From: Labyrinthula sp. Ha
Lineage: Eukaryota; Sar; Bigyra; Labyrinthulida; Labyrinthulaceae
NCBI GenBank assembly: GCA_015227615.1
Contig: JAALGZ010000008.1
Span: 806,001-870,000 of the forward strand
Reading direction: 5' to 3'
Length of the DNA: 64,000 bases
Each line of letters begins with the position of its first letter. Within the stretch, counting starts at the first letter, position 1. Positions 16,189-43,734 of this stretch are shown in pieces. A model generated the notes under the pieces. That model made no database searches, was not told where the DNA came from, and saw only the letters and a list, made by a program, of their open reading frames with translations. Position numbers and translations under genes: made by a program.

Positions 16189-16486
16189 TGCTGTGTGAGT
16201 CTACATTCAGAGCTCATTCAAGTTTTGATGAGTTTTTCATCTGAATGAGTCCCGTTAACACATGAATAAGGAATTGACAGAGGATTGCTGAGGAAATGAT
16301 TAAGGATTTTTGAAGTGTTTTTTTTAGGAATAGAGAATCCTGAAGGATTTCCTAATTGAAAAATTTGAGCTCTATCACTGAGTTTTTGAGAATTCTCAAA
16401 AACCCCGAAAATATGCTTAGAGATAGTTCTTGTTTGATTATCCTCATTTTACCAATGAGGAATTTTCCTCATTTGACACCTCTAGG
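16189..16486. repeat. Degenerate copy of the TGCAGAGTGAG repeat family
   Basis: It begins with TGTGTGAGTCTACATTCAG and ends with CCTCATTTGACACCT, resembling the ends of the clearer copy at 16608-16968. The interior has the same short words (AATGAGGA, CTCAAAAA). The ends are too diverged to place exactly. Confidence 0.35.
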
Positions 16487-16607
16487 TATTATATTTTCCC
16501 TCTACTCCCTGAAAAGATGTGTATCAAACAGTTTTATTCTCTGAGTATAAGAAACTGGATTAAAGTTGTCTTTCAGCGGATTAGTGAAGGAATGAAATCT
16601 AGGTAGG

Positions 16608-16968
16608 GGTGCAGAGTGAGGAAAAATCCTCATTGATAAATTAGGGATCATCACACCGAAAATCACTCAAACTATATTGTTAGAGTTCTCAAAGATATTT
16701 AAAATCAGAGTTGAATTTTAATTTCTTCAATTAGGAAATTATTGAGGGCCCTCAATCTCAGAAAAAATTTATCAAAAATCCTGAGTCAATTGCTCAACAG
16801 TTTCTTCAATCAACTTCTCTATGAACAACTCATTCTTCGCTCAGAACTATAAATTAAGTTCCTTATTTCTCATTGAATGTACTCTCGAGACTGACTAAGA
16901 TTTACTGAGCTATTAGGAAAATTTTTCACAAGCCTAAACTAGTTCTCAATGAGAACTCACTCTGCACC
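16608..16968. mobile_element. Short non-autonomous inverted-repeat element (MITE-like)
   Basis: A 361-bp unit whose ends are exact inverted repeats: GGTGCAGAGTGAG at 16608-16620 and CTCACTCTGCACC at 16956-16968. TA dinucleotides lie within a few bases outside both ends, as expected after Tc1/mariner-type insertion. There is no coding capacity. Related but more decayed sequence lies at 47050-47275 and 50804-51087, both preceding or following genes by a few hundred bp or more. No transposase source is visible in the window. Confidence 0.55.
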
Positions 16969-28984: not shown

Positions 28985-28988
28985 AAAT
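28985..28988. repeat. Target-site duplication AAAT, left
   Basis: AAAT precedes the leftmost LTR and is repeated at 43610-43613 after the rightmost LTR. A 4-5 bp duplication is usual for LTR element integration. It shows that the whole tandem array occupies one insertion site. Confidence 0.65.
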
Positions 28989-29129
28989 TGATCAGATCCC
29001 ACGAATACTCCTATAAATACTTTGTCAATTGCAATGAGACGTTCTTCGTATGTTTCGTGTTAAGTGTTAACGACTAGTCAAAACTATACATTACTTATAA
29101 ACCTTATAACAATAACGGCTAAACCATCA
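28989..29129 (-). repeat. LTR 1 (3' LTR of the left unit)
   Basis: 141 bp, TG...CA ends, differing at about one base from the other two copies. A purine-rich tract (on the element strand GAAAAAGAGGAA) abuts its inner edge, as expected for second-strand priming beside a 3' LTR. It is unusually short for a Ty3/gypsy LTR. Confidence 0.9.
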
Positions 29130-29299
29130 TTCCTCTTTTTCATAGATAAACTTCCTATAATTAGTTATGAGCTCAAGTCCAACAGAAAACCATCGGTAGC
29201 GTAGATTACATGATCGTGAAAACAGATCTAAATATTGTTTCCCAGGCAATAAAGTTTCTGCTAATTCATAAATTTCTACCGGCTTCTGGCTTTGAGACA

Positions 29300-32060
29300 A
29301 TCACTTCGATAAAATTACATCGTTGGGACGACCTAACAATAAATCGGGATGATTCCCTTTGGTAGCTAAGATACACTTCTCGGTTGCGTGGCGAAAAATG
29401 TGTCCATTTCCCACAGCCAACTTATCGTTTTTGGTCGTTTTGACCCACGTGATCAGGTTCCGAAACTTGAACCCTTGTTCTTGTAGCCATCGTTTCGATA
29501 ATTCCATTTTTGCGTTTACGGTCCATAGGAGGACTACTCCATGCTTGATGAGCTGACCGATATGTATCGATAATATATCCTGGTCAGAGAGAGTGTTGTA
29601 AGAAACGCTTGCACCGCGAGTAGGAGCATCAGACAAATAATTCCAGGGAGGGTCAATATGTAAAAGGTCAAATGTTCCAAAAGAATCCAATAACAAACTT
29701 ATTGCAGAAGGTTCTGAAAGATCCAACTTAATCTGTACACTTTGGGGCGGTGGAATAATAACGTCAAGCGAAGTAAAAGGTGTGAATAAATCTGAATCAG
29801 TTGAGATCACAAAGTGATTTGAACCACGTCCTGATGTTCTAAATTGTTCACCATCTAAATCCAATAAGACATAGTCTTCTGAGGTTGACCATATACTCAA
29901 ATTATTCGCGTAAAAATCCTTCAACGCCTCTACTATATCATATTCATGTTTTTGAGCGAATTTGAAAAAGTTCGATTTGACTTTGCGTTCATTGATAAGT
30001 GCCACTAACTCTTTTTCTAAAATTTTCCTTTCTAACTGCGGTTCATTTAAAACAGGTATTATGTCCCCGGGATTGCAATATTTATTGAATGTAAAATAGT
30101 CGATGTAGCTCTCTATGTTGTCAAGTCGTCTAAAGAAGGGTATAACCACTTTGTGTCGCTCCATTGGAGTTAGCCCGAACCTCCACTGATTCAGACTTCG
30201 CCGCAAAATAAGTTCTTCCGAAGTAATGTTGTGCTGCCGGATGTAAAATGTATCAAAAACGTCTCGATTCATCCTCCCTATTTTATAAACGTCAACGAAG
30301 AGCCCATGGTATTCTGAAACTGCCTGCTTAAAAACCAGTTTTTGTAATTGATTATGAAGCTGTTGCGGGTTTTTTCCTGGTAGAAGGTTTAACTCTCTGA
30401 TTTTCATATGGTTCCCGAAGCCATATTTCATTGCCGCACATCTCAGGACTTCCTTTTCTTCGGGAAGCCAACCAGGTGAAGATGTCGGAACGGCTTGTAC
30501 AGAGACACCTATATGTCCAACACGAGCATCAGGCTTTGAATTTATATCTTCCCACATTTGCTTGGCCGATTTTTTATGCTTGCCCCTATATTCCAAAATA
30601 AAGTCTTCACTCAAGCTGGGCAAATCTTCACACATCGTTCTCCACGGTTCCCATGTGGGCTCATCGTAGCCCAGCCACTTCGTTAAAACTATAACTTCCT
30701 TCTTATCTGTTATTGACAGTTTGGAGAAATATTCGACTTCTAATGGAGGTTGATTAGCGAGGAACAAATCGACAATCTCTTGTGTCGGTTCAAACGTATT
30801 GTCTTCGTATGGCCATAGTCGGGCTGCGTGAGAAATTTGACGTTTGCCCAACAAATCTTCTATTTGGTAAACATTCGAGCTTATTATTTTGATAATACGG
30901 TAGGGTCCAACAAACAGTGGGAGATGTCTGACCTGCGATGCTTTTGTTCCAGATTTCGAAAGCAGTATCCAGTCGCCCGGGCTGTATTGTATTACAGGAC
31001 CCCTGAGCTTGTCATTGTATCTCTTGTTTCTCCTCAGCCTTATTTCCATCGTCGTGTTGTATGCTACCGTCAGTCTCTCATGCATCAGTTTTCTAACTTC
31101 ATGGAAATTTGATTCAATAGAAGTCCTATTCCTTTTCGTTAATTTATTTGAAAGAGCGGAGGCAAGGCCAGATATGTTTTCCAACAGGGTGTTTGAACTA
31201 GTGGGGGGAGCATTCATGAAAAGTTGATTAGGGGTAAAATTCGCTTTTGATCTAGAAGGGTAATTGTTGAGAGAGTCCATGATCGTCCCTACTAGTTTGT
31301 GCACTTCGGTTACATTCAATCTAAACTGCGAACACAGCGTCCTGATTATTCTGACGATCTTGGCATTTGTGACTTCTACAACTCCATTTGTCCACGGACT
31401 AAATTTGATACTAAAATATCGTTTGAAATGGTAAACTTCAGATAAGGTTTGTAAAAGTTTGCCTGCGAAATAGGATGCGTTGTCTGTGACTAAAGTAAAG
31501 TTGTTCTCAAACTGAAAGTTCCCCAGAAACTCTATAAGTGCCAAAGCCATGTTTTCTGCATCTTCTTTCTCGACTACCTTCATAAACACCTTTCTGGTTG
31601 CATTATCAACCAACACTATTATTTTGCAGCTATTGTTCACAGATAGAAAGTCGGCATGTATCATCTCCCGCGGTCTTTTGGACATCAAAGTTAGGTGCAG
31701 CGGTCTTCGAATAAGTTGGGGTTGGTTGCTGGTGCAATGCAGACATTTGTCTCTAAAGTTTTGTATCATCCTTTTCAAACTACAATCTTTGGGCGTGTCA
31801 AAAGTAAACGATTTTTTCAAAAGGTCTTCTTCTTGTTTCGTAGATACATGGTTTTGTGAGATGTGATTAGAGATAATAAGTCTTGAGATGAAATCGGCGT
31901 TCCAGGGTATCCATATTTTCGAGTGTTTGGTAATTAATTCCTTTACCTTGTCTTCGAGATGTTCATTTTGTAATTTTAAAAGTTCATCGTCCGACGGTTT
32001 TTTGAAGTTATGTTTATACCAGGGGGGATAAGAAGGAGATTCTGTTCTTGTTGTATACAT
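29300..32060 (-). CDS. Retroelement integrase-chromodomain-SANT-MT-A70 fusion, left unit
   Basis: A single open stretch of about 919 codons. Integrase zinc-binding His and Cys pairs come first (about residues 66-109), then the catalytic D136, D193 and E229 with the classical 35-residue spacing. A chromodomain follows at about 441-494 (KWLGYDEPTWEP). A SANT/Myb-like domain lies at about 529-576 (WLPEEKEVLRCAAMKYGFGN). A region of about 200 residues is unassigned. An MT-A70 domain begins near 795, with HIDPPWNYLSD holding the catalytic DPPW at 803-806 (29643-29654) and LLWTVNA further on. MT-A70 enzymes methylate adenine N6 in RNA or DNA. I know of no standard Ty3/gypsy element with this addition. 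Confidence 0.85.
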
Positions 32061-33900
32061 CGTTGGTGCTTTCGGGATTGTCCAGATTTATCTCCGTCTT
32101 CAGCGCGACCATATAGCAGCTAAACATTACCATATCCATTTCACTATTCTTTTCCTTGACGATTTCTTCGGCATACCTATTTCCCCAACGCGACAAGATG
32201 TCTGCAGCCACGTTCTCCCCGGGGATATGCCTGACAACCATGTCAACTTGCTGGAACTGGTAGCCCCATCTTGACATCCTGCTAATCTGGGACTGCTTCG
32301 TGCTACTTTCCGGCGTCAAGACGTACTACAGATTTTTGTGGTCGGTAAAAACAGTAATCGTAGATGCCTGTCCAAATAATAACCATGGGATCCTTTTAAA
32401 TGAGAACCAGATGGGGTACATCTCCTTCGATGAGATATGCCAGTTAAGTTGTCCTTTTTGCAATTTACCACTAAAGAAAAACACTGGAGAATGAATTTGG
32501 CTTCTTATTGGAGTGTTGTCGTCCAAGAGTTCAGGGTTGCAGTTTCCGCAGTGAGTAACCATGAGGCCCCAATACTGATCTGAAGCGTCGGCAAATAAAC
32601 ATATCGGTTTTTCTGGTTCGTAGTTCCTCAGTCTTCTTTTGGAGGCCTTATTCAAAATGTCTAGAAATTGGGACCACTTAACTTCAGCTTCCGCTGTCCA
32701 TAACACAGGCTCGTTTTCTTTCTTCAACTGGGCCTTAGGTTTCTTTAAATGAACAAGATTCGCGAAGTAGTCACGATACTCCGTAAGGTGTTCCACTACT
32801 GGTTATAGCCAATTTGCTAGGTGCAGAGCTTGGGCCAACTGATGGCAATAGTAGGGTTTCTTCATGTCTAAAATCTTGTCAAAATATTTGCTGCTAAAGT
32901 TCCATCCTCTGTGGCTGATATTCCTACCACACCACTCCACCTCCCTTTGTAGGGGGAAACATTTATCAATGTTGAGCCGTAGAGTAAGTGAAATAAAGCG
33001 TTCTAAAAACTCGGATAAGTTCTCCAGATATTTTTGAAAAGTAGATGAGTATATGACAATGTCGTCGATCCAACAAATTGCACCTTCATCTTTCCTCATG
33101 AATTTACTGCCTAGAACTTTTGTCTGCATTCGTTCCTGCAATAGCTTGGGCGTGTTTACCCAGCCCATAGGACTTCCGACCATTTCGTGCGCGCCGATCG
33201 GAGTAATGATCGTGAAGTAGTGCATTGATTCCTCGTGAACCGGCATATAGTCAAAGCCGCTGAGGATGTCAAACACTCCGTAATATGATGAACCCATTGG
33301 TACGAAGACTTGTTGCTCGAGGTTTGGCATTGTGAGAGGTGTTTTGATGGTGACTCTGTTCAAGGGTTTCATATTCGTGACCATGCGATACTTTTCCGAG
33401 CCTTTCTTTGGAACTAGAAAGGTTTGGCATCCGTGCTTCGGGTTCCTGCTCCTCCGAATAAGGTTGCGCTTTTCCATACTCTCCAACTTAGCTCTGAGGT
33501 ATCCAAGCATTGTAGGTCCATAGTTTCTCGAGGGGTCGACAGGGAAAACAGCATCCGGAATAACATGGCAAAATATTGGCTCCAACTTCGACATCCTGGC
33601 TGGAGACTCTTTATCGCCGAATGCTTCATACCTCTTCAACAAAACGTTTTTGAGAGAGACAATATCTTCTTCATCGTAATCGCCAACGAGGTCTTTTATC
33701 TTTGTTTCAATCTTCAGCTTGATTCGCTCTTCTTCTTTTGTATCGTTTCTTTGTGAGTTTTCCCCGTAGCCAATTTCTTCAGCCTCGAACTCATCTGGCT
33801 GCTCGTCTGCTTCAAAAATAACCGGTCTTCTGTAATCGTGAGTACGCCGCTGCAGATCCCCTTCGTTAAACACCACTTTGAAAATAAATAAATCCATATT
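32050..33900 (-). CDS. Retroelement reverse transcriptase and RNase H region, left unit
   Basis: Recognisable reverse-transcriptase motifs include QTFLVPKKGSEKYRMVTNMK, the first catalytic Asp in GVFDILSGFD, and CWIDDIVIYS with the paired catalytic aspartates (a YxDD variant with Ile-Asp-Asp). RNase H sequence follows: PICLFADASDQYWG and the VFTDHKNL motif, then HIPGENVAADILSRW, typical of Ty3/gypsy elements. Coordinates are approximate limits of the recognisable domains. Confidence 0.85.
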
Positions 33901-33949
33901 TTGCTGTGAACATTTGTTATCGACATTAGATAAATAAGTAGGACCTGAA

Positions 33950-36228
33950 GCGCAAACACTTCAGTGTTGTTGTTGGTTGTTCAGGTGCTGGAGGATATTT
34001 GGCTCGGTCAGGGGGCTTCCTTGATCATCGTGTTGAATGTGTTGGGTTGGGGAAGCATGCTGAACTTGGTTTACATGTGTGCTAGCGTTCATGATATTAG
34101 AGGGTTGTCCAGGGTAAACTGCAGAAGCATACAGAGCTTGATCAGGAGTAGCCTTGAGAGTATATAAGTCTTCGAACCGAATTAGAACCCATTGCCACTC
34201 AGGTGAGTCCACAAGAGCGATCTTCAGTCTAGGGAGTTCGTTTTCTTTGCCATCGTTGTACTTGACTTTTAAAGGAATCAAGCCAGTGTGGGTGACTCTT
34301 ATTTTCTGTTCATTAGGTAATACGACGTATCGCTCTTTTCTCATGGGATATACGGTGTGACACAAATGAGAGTGTTGTTGGAAACCTCCAACTGTGGCAG
34401 TAGCGCCACTGTCAAGACAACCTTTAACAGGCTGCCAAGACCCCATAGGCACAAATATAAATATCTGTGCCTTTTCTTGATTAAGAACCTGTCCATTGAT
34501 GCCTTCAAATCTTCTAACTACGACGTCTCTTGCTCTGTTCGGGTCCCTTTGGTTCTGTTGGTATCTCTGCATATCACCTTGGGGGGCTTGTTGTAGATGT
34601 TGATTAAAAGTGGGAGCCGAGTTGTTGTTTGTGGGATAATTTCTTCTTCCTCCTGACCCAGACGAGACTTGTGGCATGTTTCTGTTATTTGCTGCTCTTA
34701 AAAATAGCGGTGGCAAACCGTTTGCCTTCCTCATTTCGTTGACGGGGCATTCTCTTTGATAATGTCCAGGTTTTGCACAAATCCTGCAGTTCTTATCATA
34801 TGCTAGTGCTGCAAGGACGTATTGCGGCGTTTGTTGGTAGGGTGAAGTCGCTTGTTGAAAGTTTTGGTAAGTTTGTACCTGAGGGAGATATTGTTGATTA
34901 GCATTTATGCTCATATTGTTCATATTCGGGATGTTTGAGTTGTAAGTTTGGTGCGATTGGTCGTACTGTATAGTCGGCGGGGGTGCGAAATGTTGTTGGG
35001 GAGATTGGTAAGTTGTTGGTGGTTGTATGCAAGGTGTTGGTGAGAATGGATATACCGTGTGGTGAGTTGTAGGCTGCTGAACTTTCATCACTTCTTGCAT
35101 CTTAATATCGTCTTCCTGCTCGTGCATCGCCCACTGCTTTAGCTTTAGAAGCTGCTCCAATAGTTCAAGTCCAGGCTTCTTATTCTCCTCCATCTTCTGC
35201 AAGTGCTCATATTGATCTTTATCGAGCAGTTTCTTCCGGGCTGACCTAACGAGTTTATGCAGCTGGTTGTACTCGTCAGTGTCAATTTCGAATCTAGCAG
35301 GGAGCTTTGATATCGCGATTTTTAGAACTTATTTTTCTATTCTTTTGTCTTTCATCTCCTTTAAAGTGACAAGTCTTTTTATTCCATTTATAAAGTGTTT
35401 CACTTGAACTCTATACGGTTTGTCCTCGGGCCATTTAAGTTGATTTCTCAAAATACGAATATTCATCTCACGTTTTTCATCGTCATACTCAGCTACTATC
35501 TGCTCTAACACCTCCTTAATGTCTTTATCAGTTTTAGCATCATACACGTCGCTGAGTTCTCTTATGACTTTGCCGTCTATGTAGTGTTGGATGGAGATAT
35601 TGCTGGATTGATGTGCGTAGGAGTGGGTGAAACTTATGACGTCTTCAGCTGAAAGGGTTTTTAAAAAAGGAGGGTTTGGCGCACTTTGAATAAAAAAGGT
35701 ATTGTTTGGGGGACTGCTAGTTGGTGTTGGGACGTTTGCTTTGCTCTTGTTGCTCGTGTTTGTCCCTACGGACTCGTTTTCTTCTTCGTATTCTTGCATT
35801 TCTGTATTTTAAATCTTCGATTTCTTAATGACGTGTTCTGATGAAAATGTAAGCTTTTTGATAAGACTATCTTTTCTTCTTGGTTTCTTTCTGCTTAAAG
35901 ACCAATTTAAGTTGTATTCTCTATTGCTTGCTCTGAGAGGTGTATCTGTAAAGCCCTTTGAATACCTAGGCGAGTTTGAATGTGTAGTTTCAAGATTTGA
36001 TTCAGCTGCTTTGGGAGTAACAGCTAAAAGCTCTTCTCGAAAACTAAGATAAGATTTAGTGTCCTTTGAGTAAGAAGGTTCGCTTAAAGTTTTAGAAACT
36101 TTACGCGGACGCATATATAATAAGGTTTCTTCAGCAGCTTGATCTACTAAATGCTTTCCGCTTTTTGATATCTTAAACTTCGGTATCTTGTAAAGTGTCA
36201 ATGTAGAATCTTTCTCTTGTTCGAACAA
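33950..36228 (-). CDS. Retroelement Gag, zinc knuckle and protease region, left unit
   Basis: Gag-like sequence comes first, then a Gln/Pro/Asn-rich stretch. A classical nucleocapsid knuckle CRICAKPGHYQREC (CX2CX4HX4C) follows, then an aspartic protease with CLDSGATATVGG, the DSGA active-site form. The coding starts almost directly at the LTR edge. Coordinates are approximate domain limits. Confidence 0.8.
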
Positions 36229-36369
36229 TGATCAGATCCCACGAATACTCCTATAAATACTTTGTCAATTGCAATGAGACGTTCTTCATATGTTTCGTGT
36301 TAAGTGTTAACGACTAGTCAAAACTATACATTACTTATAAACCTTATAACAATAACGGCTAAACCATCA
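36229..36369 (-). repeat. LTR 2 (shared middle LTR)
   Basis: 141 bp, TG...CA, serving as 5' LTR of the left unit and 3' LTR of the right unit. No extra target duplication lies inside the array, so the tandem arose by recombination or joint integration, not by two separate insertions. Confidence 0.9.
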
Positions 36370-36539
36370 TTCCTCTTTTTCATAGATAAACTTCCTATAA
36401 TTAGTTATGAGCTCAAGTCCAACAGAAAACCATCGGTAGCGTAGATTACATGATCGTGAAAACAGATCTAAATATTGTTTCCCAGGCAATAAAGTTTCTG
36501 CTAATTCATAAATTTCTACCGGCTTCTGGCTTTGAGACA

Positions 36540-39300
36540 ATCACTTCGATAAAATTACATCGTTGGGACGACCTAACAATAAATCGGGATGATTCCCTTT
36601 GGTAGCTAAGATACACTTCTCGGTTGCGTGGCGAAAAATGTGTCCATTTCCCACAGCCAACTTATCGTTTTTGGTCGTTTTGACCCACGTGATCAGGTTC
36701 CGAAACTTGAACCCTTGTTCTTGTAGCCATCGTTTCGATAATTCCATTTTTGCGTTTACGGTCCATAGGAGGACTACTCCATGCTTGATGAGCTGACCGA
36801 TATGTATCGATAATATATCCTGGTCAGAGAGAGTGTTGTAAGAAACGCTTGCACCGCGAGTAGGAGCATCAGACAAATAATTCCAGGGAGGGTCAATATG
36901 TAAAAGGTCAAATGTTCCAAAAGAATCCAATAACAAACTTATTGCAGAAGGTTCTGAAAGATCCAACTTAATCTGTACACTTTGGGGCGGTGGAATAATA
37001 ACGTCAAGCGAAGTAAAAGGTGTGAATAAATCTGAATCAGTTGAGATCACAAAGTGATTTGAACCACGTCCTGATGTTCTAAATTGTTCACCATCTAAAT
37101 CCAATAAGACATAGTCTTCTGAGGTTGACCATATACTCAAATTATTCGCGTAAAAATCCTTCAACGCCTCTACTATATCATATTCATGTTTTTGAGCGAA
37201 TTTGAAAAAGTTCGATTTGACTTTGCGTTCATTGATAAGTGCCACTAACTCTTTTTCTAAAATTTTCCTTTCTAACTGCGGTTCATTTAAAACAGGTATT
37301 ATGTCCCCGGGATTGCAATATTTATTGAATGTAAAATAGTCGATGTAGCTCTCTATGTTGTCAAGTCGTCTAAAGAAGGGTATAACCACTTTGTGTCGCT
37401 CCATTGGAGTTAGCCCGAACCTCCACTGATTCAGACTTCGCCGCAAAATAAGTTCTTCGGAAGTAATGTTGTGCTGCCGGATGTAAAATGTATCAAAAAC
37501 GTCTCGATTCATCCTCCCTATTTTATAAACGTCAACGAAGAGCCCATGGTATTCTGAAACTGCCTGCTTAAAAACCAGTTTTTGTAATTGATTATGAAGC
37601 TGTTGCGGGTTTTTTCCTGGTAGAAGGTTTAACTCTCTGATTTTCTTATGGTTCCCGAAGCCATATTTCATTGCCGCACATCTCAGGACTTCCTTTTCTT
37701 CGGGAAGCCAACCAGGTGAAGATGTCGGAACGGCTTGTACAGAGACACCTATATGTCCAACACGAGCATCAGGCTTTGAATTTATATCTTCCCACATTTG
37801 CTTGGCCGATTTCTTATGCTTGCCCCTATATTCCAAAATAAAGTCTTCACTCAAGCTGGGCAAATCTTCACACATCGTTCTCCACGGTTCCCATGTGGGC
37901 TCATCGTAGCCCAGCCACTTCGTTAAAACTATAACTTCCTTCTTATCTGTTATTGACAGTTTGGAGAAATATTCGACTTCTAATGGAGGTTGATTAGCGA
38001 GGAACAAATCGACAATCTCTTGTGTCGGTTCAAACGTATTGTCTTCGTATGGCCATAGTCGGGCTGCGTGAGAAATTTGACGTTTGCCCAACAAATCTTC
38101 TATTTGGTAAACATTCGAGCTTATTATTTTGATAATACGGTAGGGTCCAACAAACAGTGGGAGATGTCTGACCTGCGATGCTTTTGTTCCAGATTTCGAA
38201 AGCAGTATCCAGTCGCCCGGGCTGTATTGTATTACAGGACCCCTGAGCTTGTCATTGTATCTCTTGTTTCTCCTCAGCCTTATTTCCATCGTCGTGTTGT
38301 ATGCTACCGTCAGTCTCTCATGCATCAGTTTTCTAACTTCATGGAAATTTGATTCAATAGAAGTCCTATTCCTTTTCGTTAATTTATTTGAAAGAGCGGA
38401 GGCAAGGCCAGATATGTTTTCCAACAGGGTGTTTGAACTAGTGGGGGGAGCATTCATGAAAAGTTGATTAGGGGTAAAATTCGCTTTTGATCTAGAAGGG
38501 TAATTGTTGAGAGAGTCCATGATCGTCCCTACTAGTTTGTGCACTTCGGTTACATTCAATCTAAACTGCGAACACAGCGTCCTGATTATTCTGACGATCT
38601 TGGCATTTGTGACTTCTACAACTCCATTTGTCCACGGACTAAATTTGATACTAAAATATCGTTTGAAATGGTAAACTTCAGATAAGGTTTGTAAAAGTTT
38701 GCCTGCGAAATAGGATGCGTTGTCTGTGACTAAAGTAAAGTTGTTCTCAAACTGAAAGTTCCCCAGAAACTCTATAAGTGCCAAAGCCATGTTTTCTGCA
38801 TCTTCTTTCTCGACTACCTTCATAAACACCTTTCTGGTTGCATTATCAACCAACACTATTATTTTGCAGCTATTGTTCACAGATAGAAAGTCGGCATGTA
38901 TCATCTCCCGCGGTCTTTTGGACATCAAAGTTAGGTGCAGCGGTCTTCGAATAAGTTGGGGTTGGTTGCTGGTGCAATGCAGACATTTGTCTCTAAAGTT
39001 TTGTATCATCCTTTTCAAACTACAATCTTTGGGCGTGTCAAAAGTAAACGATTTTTTCAAAAGGTCTTCTTCTTGTTTCGTAGATACATGGTTTTGTGAG
39101 ATGTGATTAGAGATAATAAGTCTTGAGATGAAATCGGCGTTCCAGGGTATCCATATTTTCGAGTGTTTGGTAATTAATTCCTTTACCTTGTCTTCGAGAT
39201 GTTCATTTTGTAATTTTAAAAGTTCATCGTCCGACGGTTTTTTGAAGTTATGTTTATACCAGGGGGGATAAGAAGGAGATTCTGTTCTTGTTGTATACAT
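36540..39300 (-). CDS. Retroelement integrase-chromodomain-SANT-MT-A70 fusion, right unit
   Basis: Identical in layout to the left copy; one residue difference noted, in the SANT-like domain (GNHK here, GNHM in the left copy). The integrase triad, chromodomain and DPPW motif (36883-36894) are all unchanged. That the fused methyltransferase is the same in both units shows the fusion belongs to the element and is not a chance junction with host DNA. Confidence 0.85.
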
Positions 39301-41189: not shown

Positions 41190-43468
41190 GCGCAAACACT
41201 TCAGTGTTGTTGTTGGTTGTTCAGGTGCTGGAGGATATTTGGCTCGGTCAGGGGGCTTCCTTGATCATCGTGTTGAATGTGTTGGGTTGGGGAAGCATGC
41301 TGAACTTGGTTTACATGTGTGCTAGCGTTCATGATATTAGAGGGTTGTCCAGGGTAAACTGCAGAAGCATACAGAGCTTGATCAGGAGTAGCCTTGAGAG
41401 TATATAAGTCTTCGAACCGAATTAGAACCCATTGCCACTCAGGTGAGTCCACAAGAGCGATCTTCAGTCTAGGGAGTTCGTTTTCTTTGCCATCGTTGTA
41501 CTTGACTTTTAAAGGAATCAAGCCAGTGTGGGTGACTCTTATTTTCTGTTCATTAGGTAATACGACGTATCGCTCTTTTCTCATGGGATATACGGTGTGA
41601 CACAAATGAGAGTGTTGTTGGAAACCTCCAACTGTGGCAGTAGCGCCACTGTCAAGACAACCTTTAACAGGCTGCCAAGACCCCATAGGCACAAATATAA
41701 ATATCTGTGCCTTTTCTTGATTAAGAACCTGTCCATTGATGCCTTCAAATCTTCTAACTACGACGTCTCTTGCTCTGTTCGGGTCCCTTTGGTTCTGTTG
41801 GTATCTCTGCATATCACCTTGGGGGGCTTGTTGTAGATGTTGATTAAAAGTGGGAGCCGAGTTGTTGTTTGTGGGATAATTTCTTCTTCCTCCTGACCCA
41901 GACGAGACTTGTGGCATGTTTCTGTTATTTGCTGCTCTTAAAAATAGCGGTGGCAAACCGTTTGCCTTCCTCATTTCGTTGACGGGGCATTCCCTTTGAT
42001 AATGTCCAGGTTTTGCACAAATCCTGCAGTTCTTATCATATGCTGGTGCTGCAAGGACGTATTGCGGCGTTTGTTGGTAGGGTGAAGTCGCTTGTTGAAA
42101 GTTTTGGTAAGTTTGTACCTGAGGGAGATATTGTTGATTAGCATTTATGCTCATATTGTTCATATTCGGGATGTTTGAGTTGTAAGTTTGGTGCGATTGG
42201 TCGTACTGTATAGTCGGCGGGGGTGCGAAATGTTGTTGGGGAGATTGGTAAGTTGTTGGTGGTTGTATGCAAGGTGTTGGTGAGAATGGATATACCGTGT
42301 GGTGAGTTGTAGGCTGCTGAACTTTCATCACTTCTTGCATCTTAATATCGTCTTCCTGCTCGTGCATCGCCCACTGCTTTAGCTTTAGAAGCTGCTCCAA
42401 TAGTTCAAGTCCAGGCTTCTTATTCTCCTCCATCTTCTGCAAGTGCTCATATTGATCTTTATCGAGCAGTTTCTTCTGGGCTGACCTAACGAGTTTATGC
42501 AGCTGGTTGTACTCGTCAGTGTCAATTTCGAATCTAGCAGGGAGCTTTGATATCGCGATTTTTAGAACTTATTTTTCTATTCTTTTGTCTTTCATCTCCT
42601 TTAAAGTGACAAGTCTTTTTATTCCATTTATAAAGTGTTTCACTTGAACTCTATACGGTTTGTCCTCGGGCCATTTAAGTTGATTTCTCAAAATACGAAT
42701 ATTCATCTCACGTTTTTCATCGTCATACTCAGCTACTATCTGCTCTAACACCTCCTTAATGTCTTTATCAGTTTTAGCATCATACACGTCGCTGAGTTCT
42801 CTTATGACTTTGCCGTCTATGTAGTGTTGGATGGAGATATTGCTGGATTGATGTGCGTAGGAGTGGGTGAAACTTATGACGTCTTCAGCTGAAAGGGTTT
42901 TTAAAAAAGGAGGGTTTGGCGCACTTTGAATAAAAAAGGTATTGTTTGGGGGACTGCTAGTTGGTGTTGGGACGTTTGCTTTGCTCTTGTTGCTCGTGTT
43001 TGTCCCTACGGACTCGTTTTCTTCTTCGTATTCTTGCATTTCTGTATTTTAAATCTTCGATTTCTTAATGACGTGTTCTGATGAAAATGTAAGCTTTTTG
43101 ATAAGACTATCTTTTCTTCTTGGTTTCTTTCTGCTTAAAGACCAATTTAAGTTGTATTCTCTATTGCTTGCTCTGAGAGGTGTATCTGTAAAGCCCTTTG
43201 AATACCTAGGCGAGTTTGAATGTGTAGTTTCAAGATTTGATTCAGCTGCTTTGGGAGTAACAGCTAAAAGCTCTTCTCGAAAACTAAGATAAGATTTAGT
43301 GTCCTTTGAGTAAGAAGGTTCGCTTAAAGTTTTAGAAACTTTACGCGGACGCAAATATAATAAGGTTTCTTCAGCAGCTTGATCTACTAAATGCTTTCCG
43401 CTTTTTGATATCTTAAACTTCGGTATCTTGTAAAGTGTCAATGTAGAATCTTTCTCTTGTTCGAACAA
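41190..43468 (-). CDS. Retroelement Gag, zinc knuckle and protease region, right unit
   Basis: Same CCHC knuckle and DSGA protease motif as the left unit. Two residue differences noted in the Gag part. Limits are approximate. Confidence 0.8.
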
Positions 43469-43609
43469 TGATCAGATCCCACGAATACTCCTATAAATAC
43501 TTTGTCAATTGCAATGAGACGTTCTTCATATGTTTCGTGTTAAGTGTTAACGACTAGTCAAAACTATACATTACTTATAAACCTTATAACAATAACGGCT
43601 AAACCATCA
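43469..43609 (-). repeat. LTR 3 (5' LTR of the right unit)
   Basis: 141 bp with TG...CA ends, appearing identical to LTR 2. Just inside the element is the perfect palindrome TTGTTCGAACAA where a tRNA primer site would normally lie. Flanked outside by AAAT (43610-43613), the partner of the duplication at 28985-28988. Confidence 0.9.
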
Positions 43610-43734
43610 AAATGAAGAGTCAAACCGAAAAAAATTGGTTAAAAATCGAGTTCTAGCACTTCAAACATGTAAATACTTGAAGATGAACAAATATTTCACA
43701 CATTTATATGTTAAAGTCTAGTGGGGTGGATAAA

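Follow-up and report, generated by a model that had tools for sequence, protein, structure and literature searches.

How does an adenine methyltransferase domain come to stand at the end of a retrotransposon polyprotein, and what would it do there? The question is raised by a 64,000-nucleotide stretch of the genome of Labyrinthula sp. Ha (contig JAALGZ010000008.1, positions 806,001 to 870,000; hereafter the window). A sequence-only reading of the window had noticed, at 29300..32060, one frame joining an integrase, a chromodomain, a SANT/Myb-like domain and an MT-A70 domain. The frame belongs to a family of long terminal repeat (LTR) retrotransposons that, as classed by Pfam matches, is of the Ty3/gypsy type. 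Its domains stand in one order, recur at well over 100 loci, are under purifying selection and share common descent with the polymerase. The account that we lean towards is that of a chromodomain-bearing Ty3/gypsy-type family whose Pol ends in a captured module, consisting of a relative of p1 and an AMT1/MTA1-type MT-A70 domain, with which the element would methylate its own DNA at ApT; the methylation is argued from homology.

The frame in question (29301..32060) is read from the minus strand and encodes 919 amino acids from its ATG, the open stretch extending from 29301 to 32087. The integrase core (31395..31679, minus strand; residues 128-222) matches the Pfam profile rve at 1.2e-5, and the integrase p58 C-terminal profile matches at 8.5e-6. 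The chromodomain at 30609..30692 (minus strand) is weak in this copy (Chromo 0.0083), and the Myb-like region gives 0.015. Thus the integrase, chromodomain and Myb profiles that the sequence-only reading had suggested as a check do find their domains, but below the curated cut-offs in the window copy, as is also the case for p58. A D,D35E spacing was read by eye in protein P0001 (HADF, then TDNA, 35 residues and E). With a profile built from relatives, the window row being among the rows used to build it, the chromodomain reaches 70 bits; in other copies the Pfam Chromo profile passes its cut-off in L026, falls just under it in L018 and is weak in L012. Pfam finds the MT-A70 domain in the 919-residue protein above the cut-off, at E 5.7e-18, covering the first 110 of 172 profile positions. 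A TGA at 29301-29303 splits this domain, the remainder of which continues in the same frame to 29130; the genome search with PF05063 places the domain, with its DPPW motif, at 29172..29672 on the minus strand (E 2.9e-30). The domains, the DPPW and the coordinates of the sequence-only reading were therefore sound; two points need correction, namely the TGA within the methyltransferase domain and the SANT assignment. A second unit repeats the domain order at 36541..39300 (minus strand; open frame and self-comparison), as had been claimed. Since it is a near-identical tandem copy with 8 mismatches, it is not by itself independent evidence, which comes from other loci in the genome.

The supposed SANT region is a relative of p1, a subunit of a DNA methylase complex, and not a generic chromatin-targeting module. 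When window residues ~526-644 (30129..30485, minus strand) were compared with solved structures, p1 of the Tetrahymena MTA1 complex (chain 7f4l_E) was matched at E 9.6e-11 over p1 residues 20-144, and the next other molecule followed at 0.75. The same domain of L018, a copy elsewhere in the genome, matches p1 at 3.6e-18 over residues 21-157, with the next chain, AMTP2 (which we take to be p2), at 0.07; that of the database protein P0005 gives 7.7e-10. These alignments, which reach past the homeobox-like domain, make the region a homologue of p1. A generic Myb/SANT identity was rejected, p1 being the sole strong match in the structural database. In the MTA1 complex, MTA1 is described as catalytic, MTA9 as an eroded partner, p1 as the likely holder of DNA and p2 as a stabiliser (PMC9852454). 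A survey published in 2025, which covered 231 eukaryotes, states that AMT1 is the exclusive companion of p1 and p2 (PMC12695648). Relatives of two subunits of one complex thus stand next to each other in the element, which would not be expected had a Myb domain and a methylase been captured at random.

Against the same structures, the window methyltransferase region matches MTA1 at 1.7e-37, METTL3 at 1.9e-22, METTL14 near 1e-9 and MTA9 at 7e-4. The domain of P0005 gives 1.4e-50 for MTA1, 5e-30 for METTL3, 2e-15 for METTL14, 0.002 for MTA9 and 0.089 for 7cv6 (presumably METTL4). By local alignment score, host AMT1 or Tetrahymena MTA1 outscores METTL3 in 23 of 23 element domains, some margins being small: the L018 domain scores 317 with host AMT1, 285 with MTA1 and 284 with METTL3. 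In per cent identity P0011 comes closest to METTL3 (41%), although its score there is below that with MTA1. On these comparisons, the element MT-A70 is closer to AMT1/MTA1 than to METTL3, METTL14, MTA9 or METTL4. In a tree of 51 MT-A70 domains, the kind of phylogeny that the sequence-only reading had proposed, the 23 element rows share one side with METTL3/14 and AMT1 (89/96, not starred), METTL4 and 23 metagenomic rows being set apart, but their exact branch is not fixed (p-AU 0.189-0.343). The approximately unbiased (AU) test rejects neither a grouping of the elements with AMT1 (p-AU 0.343) nor one with METTL3/14 to the exclusion of AMT1 (0.277). An origin from METTL3 is accordingly disfavoured by score and compatible with the AU test. 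P0005 groups with the window branch and L024/L028 in this tree (96/96).

The genome also carries a stand-alone host AMT1, at locus L014 (G000 C91:220293-221273, P0035). It is 57% identical to Tetrahymena MTA1 over the domain, its structure match to MTA1 is 3.7e-73, and a profile scan of the locus finds none of the element domains. A frame resembling pantoate ligase was noticed by eye in the same locus. No METTL3 orthologue was found in the genome with the METTL3 domain as query, introns being able to split genes; the best match was the host AMT1, at 43%. A p1 match at C1:1284467 and a candidate at C100:135979 outscore all other p1 matches and have no listed MT-A70 downstream. Beyond the assembly, EukProt holds proteins that are 100% identical over the aligned stretch to those of the window and L018, and the fusion is present in two further database proteins, P0005 (source lgn, 34% identity) and P0011 (source ena, 27%). 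One scan of viral contigs gave no relatives of the element. A protein search with the methyltransferase alignment returned 23 MT-A70 proteins of 182-482 amino acids, none of them shown to be an element.

The genome searched comprises 50.84 Mb in 153 contigs. PF05063 gave 354 candidates, of which 150 were scored, and all 150 exceed the cut-off. At most 150 were scored of the 309 p1, 379 RNase H and 275 chromodomain candidates, and the linkage counts that follow are lower bounds. A p1 match lies 0.3-2.5 kb upstream on the same strand of at least 100 of the 150 MT-A70 matches, and an RNase H match 2-6 kb upstream of at least 70. One or both are present upstream of at least 113, compared with 0-2 in controls placed downstream or on the opposite strand. 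Among the remaining 37, at least 27 have a chromodomain 1.06-1.61 kb upstream (control 0), which brings those with p1, RNase H and/or chromodomain at the expected distance to at least 140 of 150. The 10 unlinked matches include the host AMT1 and two short stretches with the methyltransferase only, one of which is L037. The fusion is thus not confined to a single locus. Neither of the two findings that the sequence-only reading had named as refuting it, profile searches that miss MT-A70 or a fusion present at this one locus alone, has therefore been made. Conversely, among the matches listed, 43 of 150 p1 matches have no MT-A70 downstream, and 76 of 150 RNase H matches, the 11 strongest included, have none 2-6 kb downstream. 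This is due partly to the limits of the match lists and partly to elements without the module, which probably coexist in the genome.

Twenty long loci of ~9.5 kb each, chosen by hand from the top of the 150 scored MT-A70 matches and not a random sample, were examined with profiles made from the copies and the database relatives. In 19 of these, reverse transcriptase (RT), RNase H, integrase, chromodomain, p1-like domain and MT-A70 follow one another on one strand, with RT partial in L013, L015 and L016 and p1 partial in L024, L025 and L028; the twentieth is the host AMT1 locus. Single open frames of 2,278-2,363 codons, stop to stop, are found in 6 of the 20. All 19 element loci have LTR-like flanking direct repeats of 125-473 bp with 89.8-100% identity (the repeat of L025 is cut by the locus edge), and one pair is identical over 443 bases. 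Such near-identical LTRs suggest that insertions are recent. A chance fusion or a single locus was rejected as an explanation on the strength of the 19 long loci, the linkage of at least 140 matches and the database relatives. A host gene lying beside an element was likewise rejected, the sole stand-alone MT-A70 among the 20 long loci being the host AMT1.

Selection was assessed by the ratio of nonsynonymous to synonymous divergence (dN/dS; Nei-Gojobori) on 15 chosen pairs of close copies. In four pairs, window-L027 included, all domains are saturated, and two others, window-L023 and L024-L028, yield usable values for the methyltransferase only. The ratio is 0.05-0.27 for the methyltransferase (10 pairs with usable dS), 0-0.13 for p1 (8 pairs) and 0.04-0.10 for RT (6 pairs); one pair, usable in the integrase only, gives 0.29. 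For the pair of window and L027, with its saturated dS, dN in the methyltransferase (0.083) falls short of that in RT (0.116) and integrase (0.144). By these estimates p1 and the methyltransferase are under purifying selection, as is RT. With its recurrence at many loci, this bears out one part of the sequence-only reading, the existence of a Ty3/gypsy-type element family with an MT-A70 domain.

Fourteen rows, P0009 and P0011 among them, were used for two trees, one of RT, RNase H and integrase and one of p1 and the methyltransferase, and the two topologies are identical. A domain was omitted from these trees where its match covered less than 75% (less than 60% for database proteins); L024, L025 and L028 are represented by the methyltransferase without p1, and the polymerase part of L016 lacks RT and consists of RNase H and integrase. 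P0011, with 42% of the polymerase columns filled, is placed with weak support in the p1-methyltransferase tree (53/28). The matching topologies imply that the module was acquired before the divergence of these lineages and was then inherited with the polymerase, and on this comparison the p1-methyltransferase module is a single old capture. The identity of element domains to either host AMT1 or Tetrahymena MTA1 is 28-49%, which, set against the 57% between those two, indicates an old capture or a fast-evolving domain. The methyltransferase of L012 has a synonymous divergence of 0.15, 0.17 and 0.34 from L011, L013 and L016, less than nearly all other domains show in these pairs (mostly 0.3-1.2); conversion, or a switch of template, at the 3′ end would be a likely cause.

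Whether the domain can catalyse methyl transfer was judged from alignment to MTA1. DPPW is intact in 13 of 22 genome rows and in P0005; P0011 has DFPW. The catalytic Asp is retained in 21 of the 22 rows (Asn in L028). Among the residues with which MTA1 contacts S-adenosylmethionine (SAM), Arg357 is present in 22 of 22 rows, Asn360 in 20 and Ser332 in 18. Many lineages thus look capable of catalysis from their sequence, a likeness that amounts to an activity call for none. Several observations weigh against a self-methylating element. DPPW is altered in nine rows (DPAW in three, DPPY in two, and DPPG, NPPW, DAPW and DLPF in one each), Asp182 is retained in only 15 of 22, and Asn370 survives in only 4 of the 20 rows that have a residue there, the other 16 showing a different one; the window and P0005 have Leu; the altered motif and the loss of Asn370 make catalysis uncertain. 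No part resembling MTA9 or p2 was recognised in the element, and Tetrahymena AMT1 works with MTA9, p1 and p2. The AU test gives a p-AU of 0.189 for the elements as one clade and likewise leaves the branch between AMT1 and METTL3 unsettled. The window copies, moreover, are decayed. The DPAW branch, at least, is conserved despite its motif change, with dN/dS of 0.08-0.19 in the methyltransferase over five pairs.

If the module is a working writer, the following sequence of events can be envisaged. It would be made within Gag-Pol and travel with the integrase and the complementary DNA (cDNA). The p1-like domain would hold double-stranded DNA. Methylation of ApT on the new cDNA or at the insertion would fall to the MT-A70 domain, either by itself or paired with a partner, from the host or from the element, that takes the role of MTA9 or AMT6-7. 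N6-methyladenine (6mA) from the AMT1 pathway is reported to mark transcriptionally permissive chromatin (PMC12695648), and a pre-methylated copy would for this reason resemble an active gene from the start and be silenced less readily. It is a tentative proposal, one that may well prove wrong, that the family is a self-marking system in which ApT-methylated cDNA, during or just after integration, gives each new copy a heritable, host-maintained active-promoter mark. On this proposal, copies that can catalyse and copies with an eroded motif may, within one genome, even serve one another as partners in a heterodimer.

The same module might instead steer integration without writing anything: p1, MT-A70 and chromodomain would together dock on the host AMT1 complex, or on promoter chromatin carrying 6mA and trimethylated lysine 4 of histone H3 (H3K4me3). 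The module sits directly behind the integrase and chromodomain, a region that in Ty3/gypsy elements is the usual seat of target-site selection. The nine altered DPPW motifs and the replacement of Asn370, which contacts SAM in MTA1, in 16 of 20 rows, coupled with continued selection on the DPAW branch, fit such a dock, and MT-A70 subunits pair with a catalytically dead one (MTA9, METTL14), so that an eroded motif is compatible with function. A mere dock, however, would have no need of the DPPW kept in 13 of 22 rows and P0005, of the catalytic Asp in 21 or of the SAM-contact Arg in all 22, and we regard the steering explanation, although it is the chief alternative and the eroded motifs favour it in some branches, as rather doubtful.

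Self-methylation of DNA must also be set beside methylation of the element's genomic RNA, as N6-methyladenosine (m6A), for example for packaging, translation or escape from RNA silencing. The sequence-only reading had allowed for both m6A in RNA and 6mA in DNA. RNA is the substrate of the METTL3/14 pair, the AU test accommodates the elements with METTL3/14, and P0011 is most identical to METTL3 in spite of its lower score. DNA is nevertheless favoured as the substrate because all 23 domains score higher with AMT1 than with METTL3 and because the adjoining domain is homologous to p1, found exclusively in species with AMT1; p1 is tied to the DNA pathway in the survey cited above (PMC12695648). 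Judged on these homologies, an RNA writer seems improbable. That the module is a passenger or an artefact, whether through chance transduction of parts of host genes, a join made in assembly or read-through between adjacent frames, is very improbable. The decay and mutual near-identity of the window copies would suit it, but not the single frames of 2,278-2,363 codons at six of the long loci, the linkage at no fewer than 140 of 150 matches, the occurrence in two other data sources, the purifying selection and the trees of the same topology.

Several known systems resemble the element. Chromoviruses are chromodomain Ty3/gypsy elements with LTRs, the order RT-RNase H-integrase, a chromodomain after the integrase and a short target duplication. 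The Labyrinthula element shares all of these, with a target duplication of 4 bp in the window and of 5 bp, by eye, in L024. It differs in its writer module behind the chromodomain, in a protease-like domain between p1 and the methyltransferase in one branch, and in a palindrome in place of the tRNA primer site. Retroelements with captured DNA methyltransferases (DNMTs) have been described as KnitGypsy-Dnmt3 in Klebsormidium nitens and as SymbioLINE-Dnmt and SymbioDIRS-Dnmt3 in Symbiodinium (PMC5890265). As reported there, these too have a eukaryotic DNA methyltransferase in or beside Pol with purifying selection on it, and KnitGypsy also resembles the element in its Gypsy domain composition; their enzymes, however, are cytosine DNMTs, structurally unrelated to adenine methylases, whereas the element has an MT-A70 of the AMT1 kind with p1. 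DIRS-type elements with Dam-like N6-adenine methylases likewise join a retroelement to a presumed adenine methylase, but have a tyrosine recombinase instead of a DDE integrase and a bacterial Dam-type enzyme instead of MT-A70, and the account of them makes no mention of p1 (PMC5890265). Pfam scans of the window and other element copies gave no match to tyrosine recombinase, Dam or C5-cytosine methylase.

The Tetrahymena MTA1 complex (MTA1c, or AMT1 complex: MTA1, MTA9, p1 and p2), as described in PMC9852454, is matched in the p1-like and MTA1-like parts, in the DPPW of many copies and in a PxRG stretch after it. The element differs in fusing its parts in one polyprotein, with chromodomain and integrase in cis, and in having no recognised MTA9 or p2. 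N4CMT of bdelloid rotifers also joins a chromodomain to a DNA amino-methyltransferase, but is described as a gene of the host, bacterial in origin, whose product makes N4-methylcytosine and marks transposons without being part of one (PMC8885841). The ParB-methylase accessory genes reported from algal DNA transposons (PMC12477816) similarly place an amino-methyltransferase with a DNA-binding domain on a transposon. The sequence-only reading had known of no described Ty3/gypsy element with an adenine methyltransferase, and none with MT-A70 or p1 was encountered in the full-text literature searched, by titles and abstract openings (preprints, most subscription papers and repeat databases lie outside this scope).

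As retroelements with DNMTs or Dam-like methylases were already known, the new feature is the capture of two subunits, p1 and an AMT1-type domain, in an LTR element. The family thus presents a natural single-chain form of two subunits from one enzyme complex. MT-A70 families are reported to have been relatively static after an early diversification, ciliate expansions apart (231 eukaryotes; PMC12695648), and a large, old and selected LTR family with an AMT1-type domain and its partner p1 would be a striking exception. With relatives of two partner subunits, one catalytic and one DNA-binding, fused to an integrase, mobile DNA may carry with it a 6mA writer of its own, and the question arises whether mobile elements mark their own DNA as active.

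In the window, self-comparison reveals a tandem duplication of a 7,240-bp unit on the minus strand. The LTR is 141 bp and ends TGAT...ATCA. The copy at 36229..36369 is shared by the two units, being the 5′ LTR of A and the 3′ LTR of B; it equals the unit B 5′ LTR at 43469..43609 exactly and has one mismatch with the unit A 3′ LTR at 28989..29129 (all on the minus strand). The units differ by seven internal mismatches and this one LTR mismatch across 28989-36369. AAAT, read from the flanks, stands at 28985..28988 and again at 43610-43613 as the target-site duplication, and since it is common to the outer flanks, the whole LTR-internal-LTR-internal-LTR tandem looks like a single insertion. A purine-rich polypurine tract abuts the 3′ LTR at 29130..29141 (minus strand, read from the sequence) and also encodes the final residues of the writer frame. 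The TGA that closes this frame (29127-29129) is supplied by the 3′ LTR, of which it makes up the first three bases.

The order on the minus strand is gag-like frames, a CCHC knuckle, a protease motif, RT, RNase H, then, in another frame, integrase, followed by chromodomain, p1-like domain and MT-A70. In unit A, all on the minus strand, the gag/protease part occupies 33961..35328 (zf-CCHC 5.3e-4, just below the cut-off, and LDSGAT, which we take to be a protease-type motif), RT 32803..33960 (RVT_1 1.4e-14) and RNase H 32326..32802 (RT_RNaseH 9.7e-14), after which comes the frame running from the integrase to the start of MT-A70. The upstream frames are cut by stops and the frame changes between RNase H and integrase; with the TGA in the MT-A70 domain, this identifies the window copies as decayed members of the family. 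Unit B has its p1-like domain at 37369..37725 (minus strand), from the match C132:843405-843719 (window 37405-37719) with limits set by the 7,240 offset, and its MT-A70, with the same TGA, at 36412..36912 (minus strand, PF05063 genome search).

The protease-like domain with a DSG motif between p1 and MT-A70 is found in L009-L013, L015-L022, L025 and L026 and, by eye, in P0009 and P0011. None was found between p1 and MT-A70 in the window branch, to which L023, L024, L027, L028 and the visible part of P0005 also belong. The domain is weak in Pfam (gag-asp_proteas 0.049 in L018, below the cut-off). Its position is unusual for a Ty3/gypsy polyprotein, where the protease is normally upstream of RT.

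At the expected position of the tRNA primer site, unit A has the palindrome TTGTTCGAACAA adjoining its 5′ LTR (36217..36228, minus strand, read from the sequence), with a unit B counterpart at 43457-43468. Perfect, lineage-specific palindromes were seen by eye at or across the 5′ LTR junction in place of a primer site: TTGTTCGAACAA in the window, L023, L027 and L028, AATATTGGATCCAATATT in L009 and its relatives, TATTGAATTCAATA in the L018 group and L026, and TATTGATATCAATA in L025, with L024 departing from the pattern. A self-complementary priming or dimerisation site is a possible role for them. Elsewhere in the window, 16286-16799 forms an imperfect inverted self-match with an alignment length of 523 and 65.8% identity.

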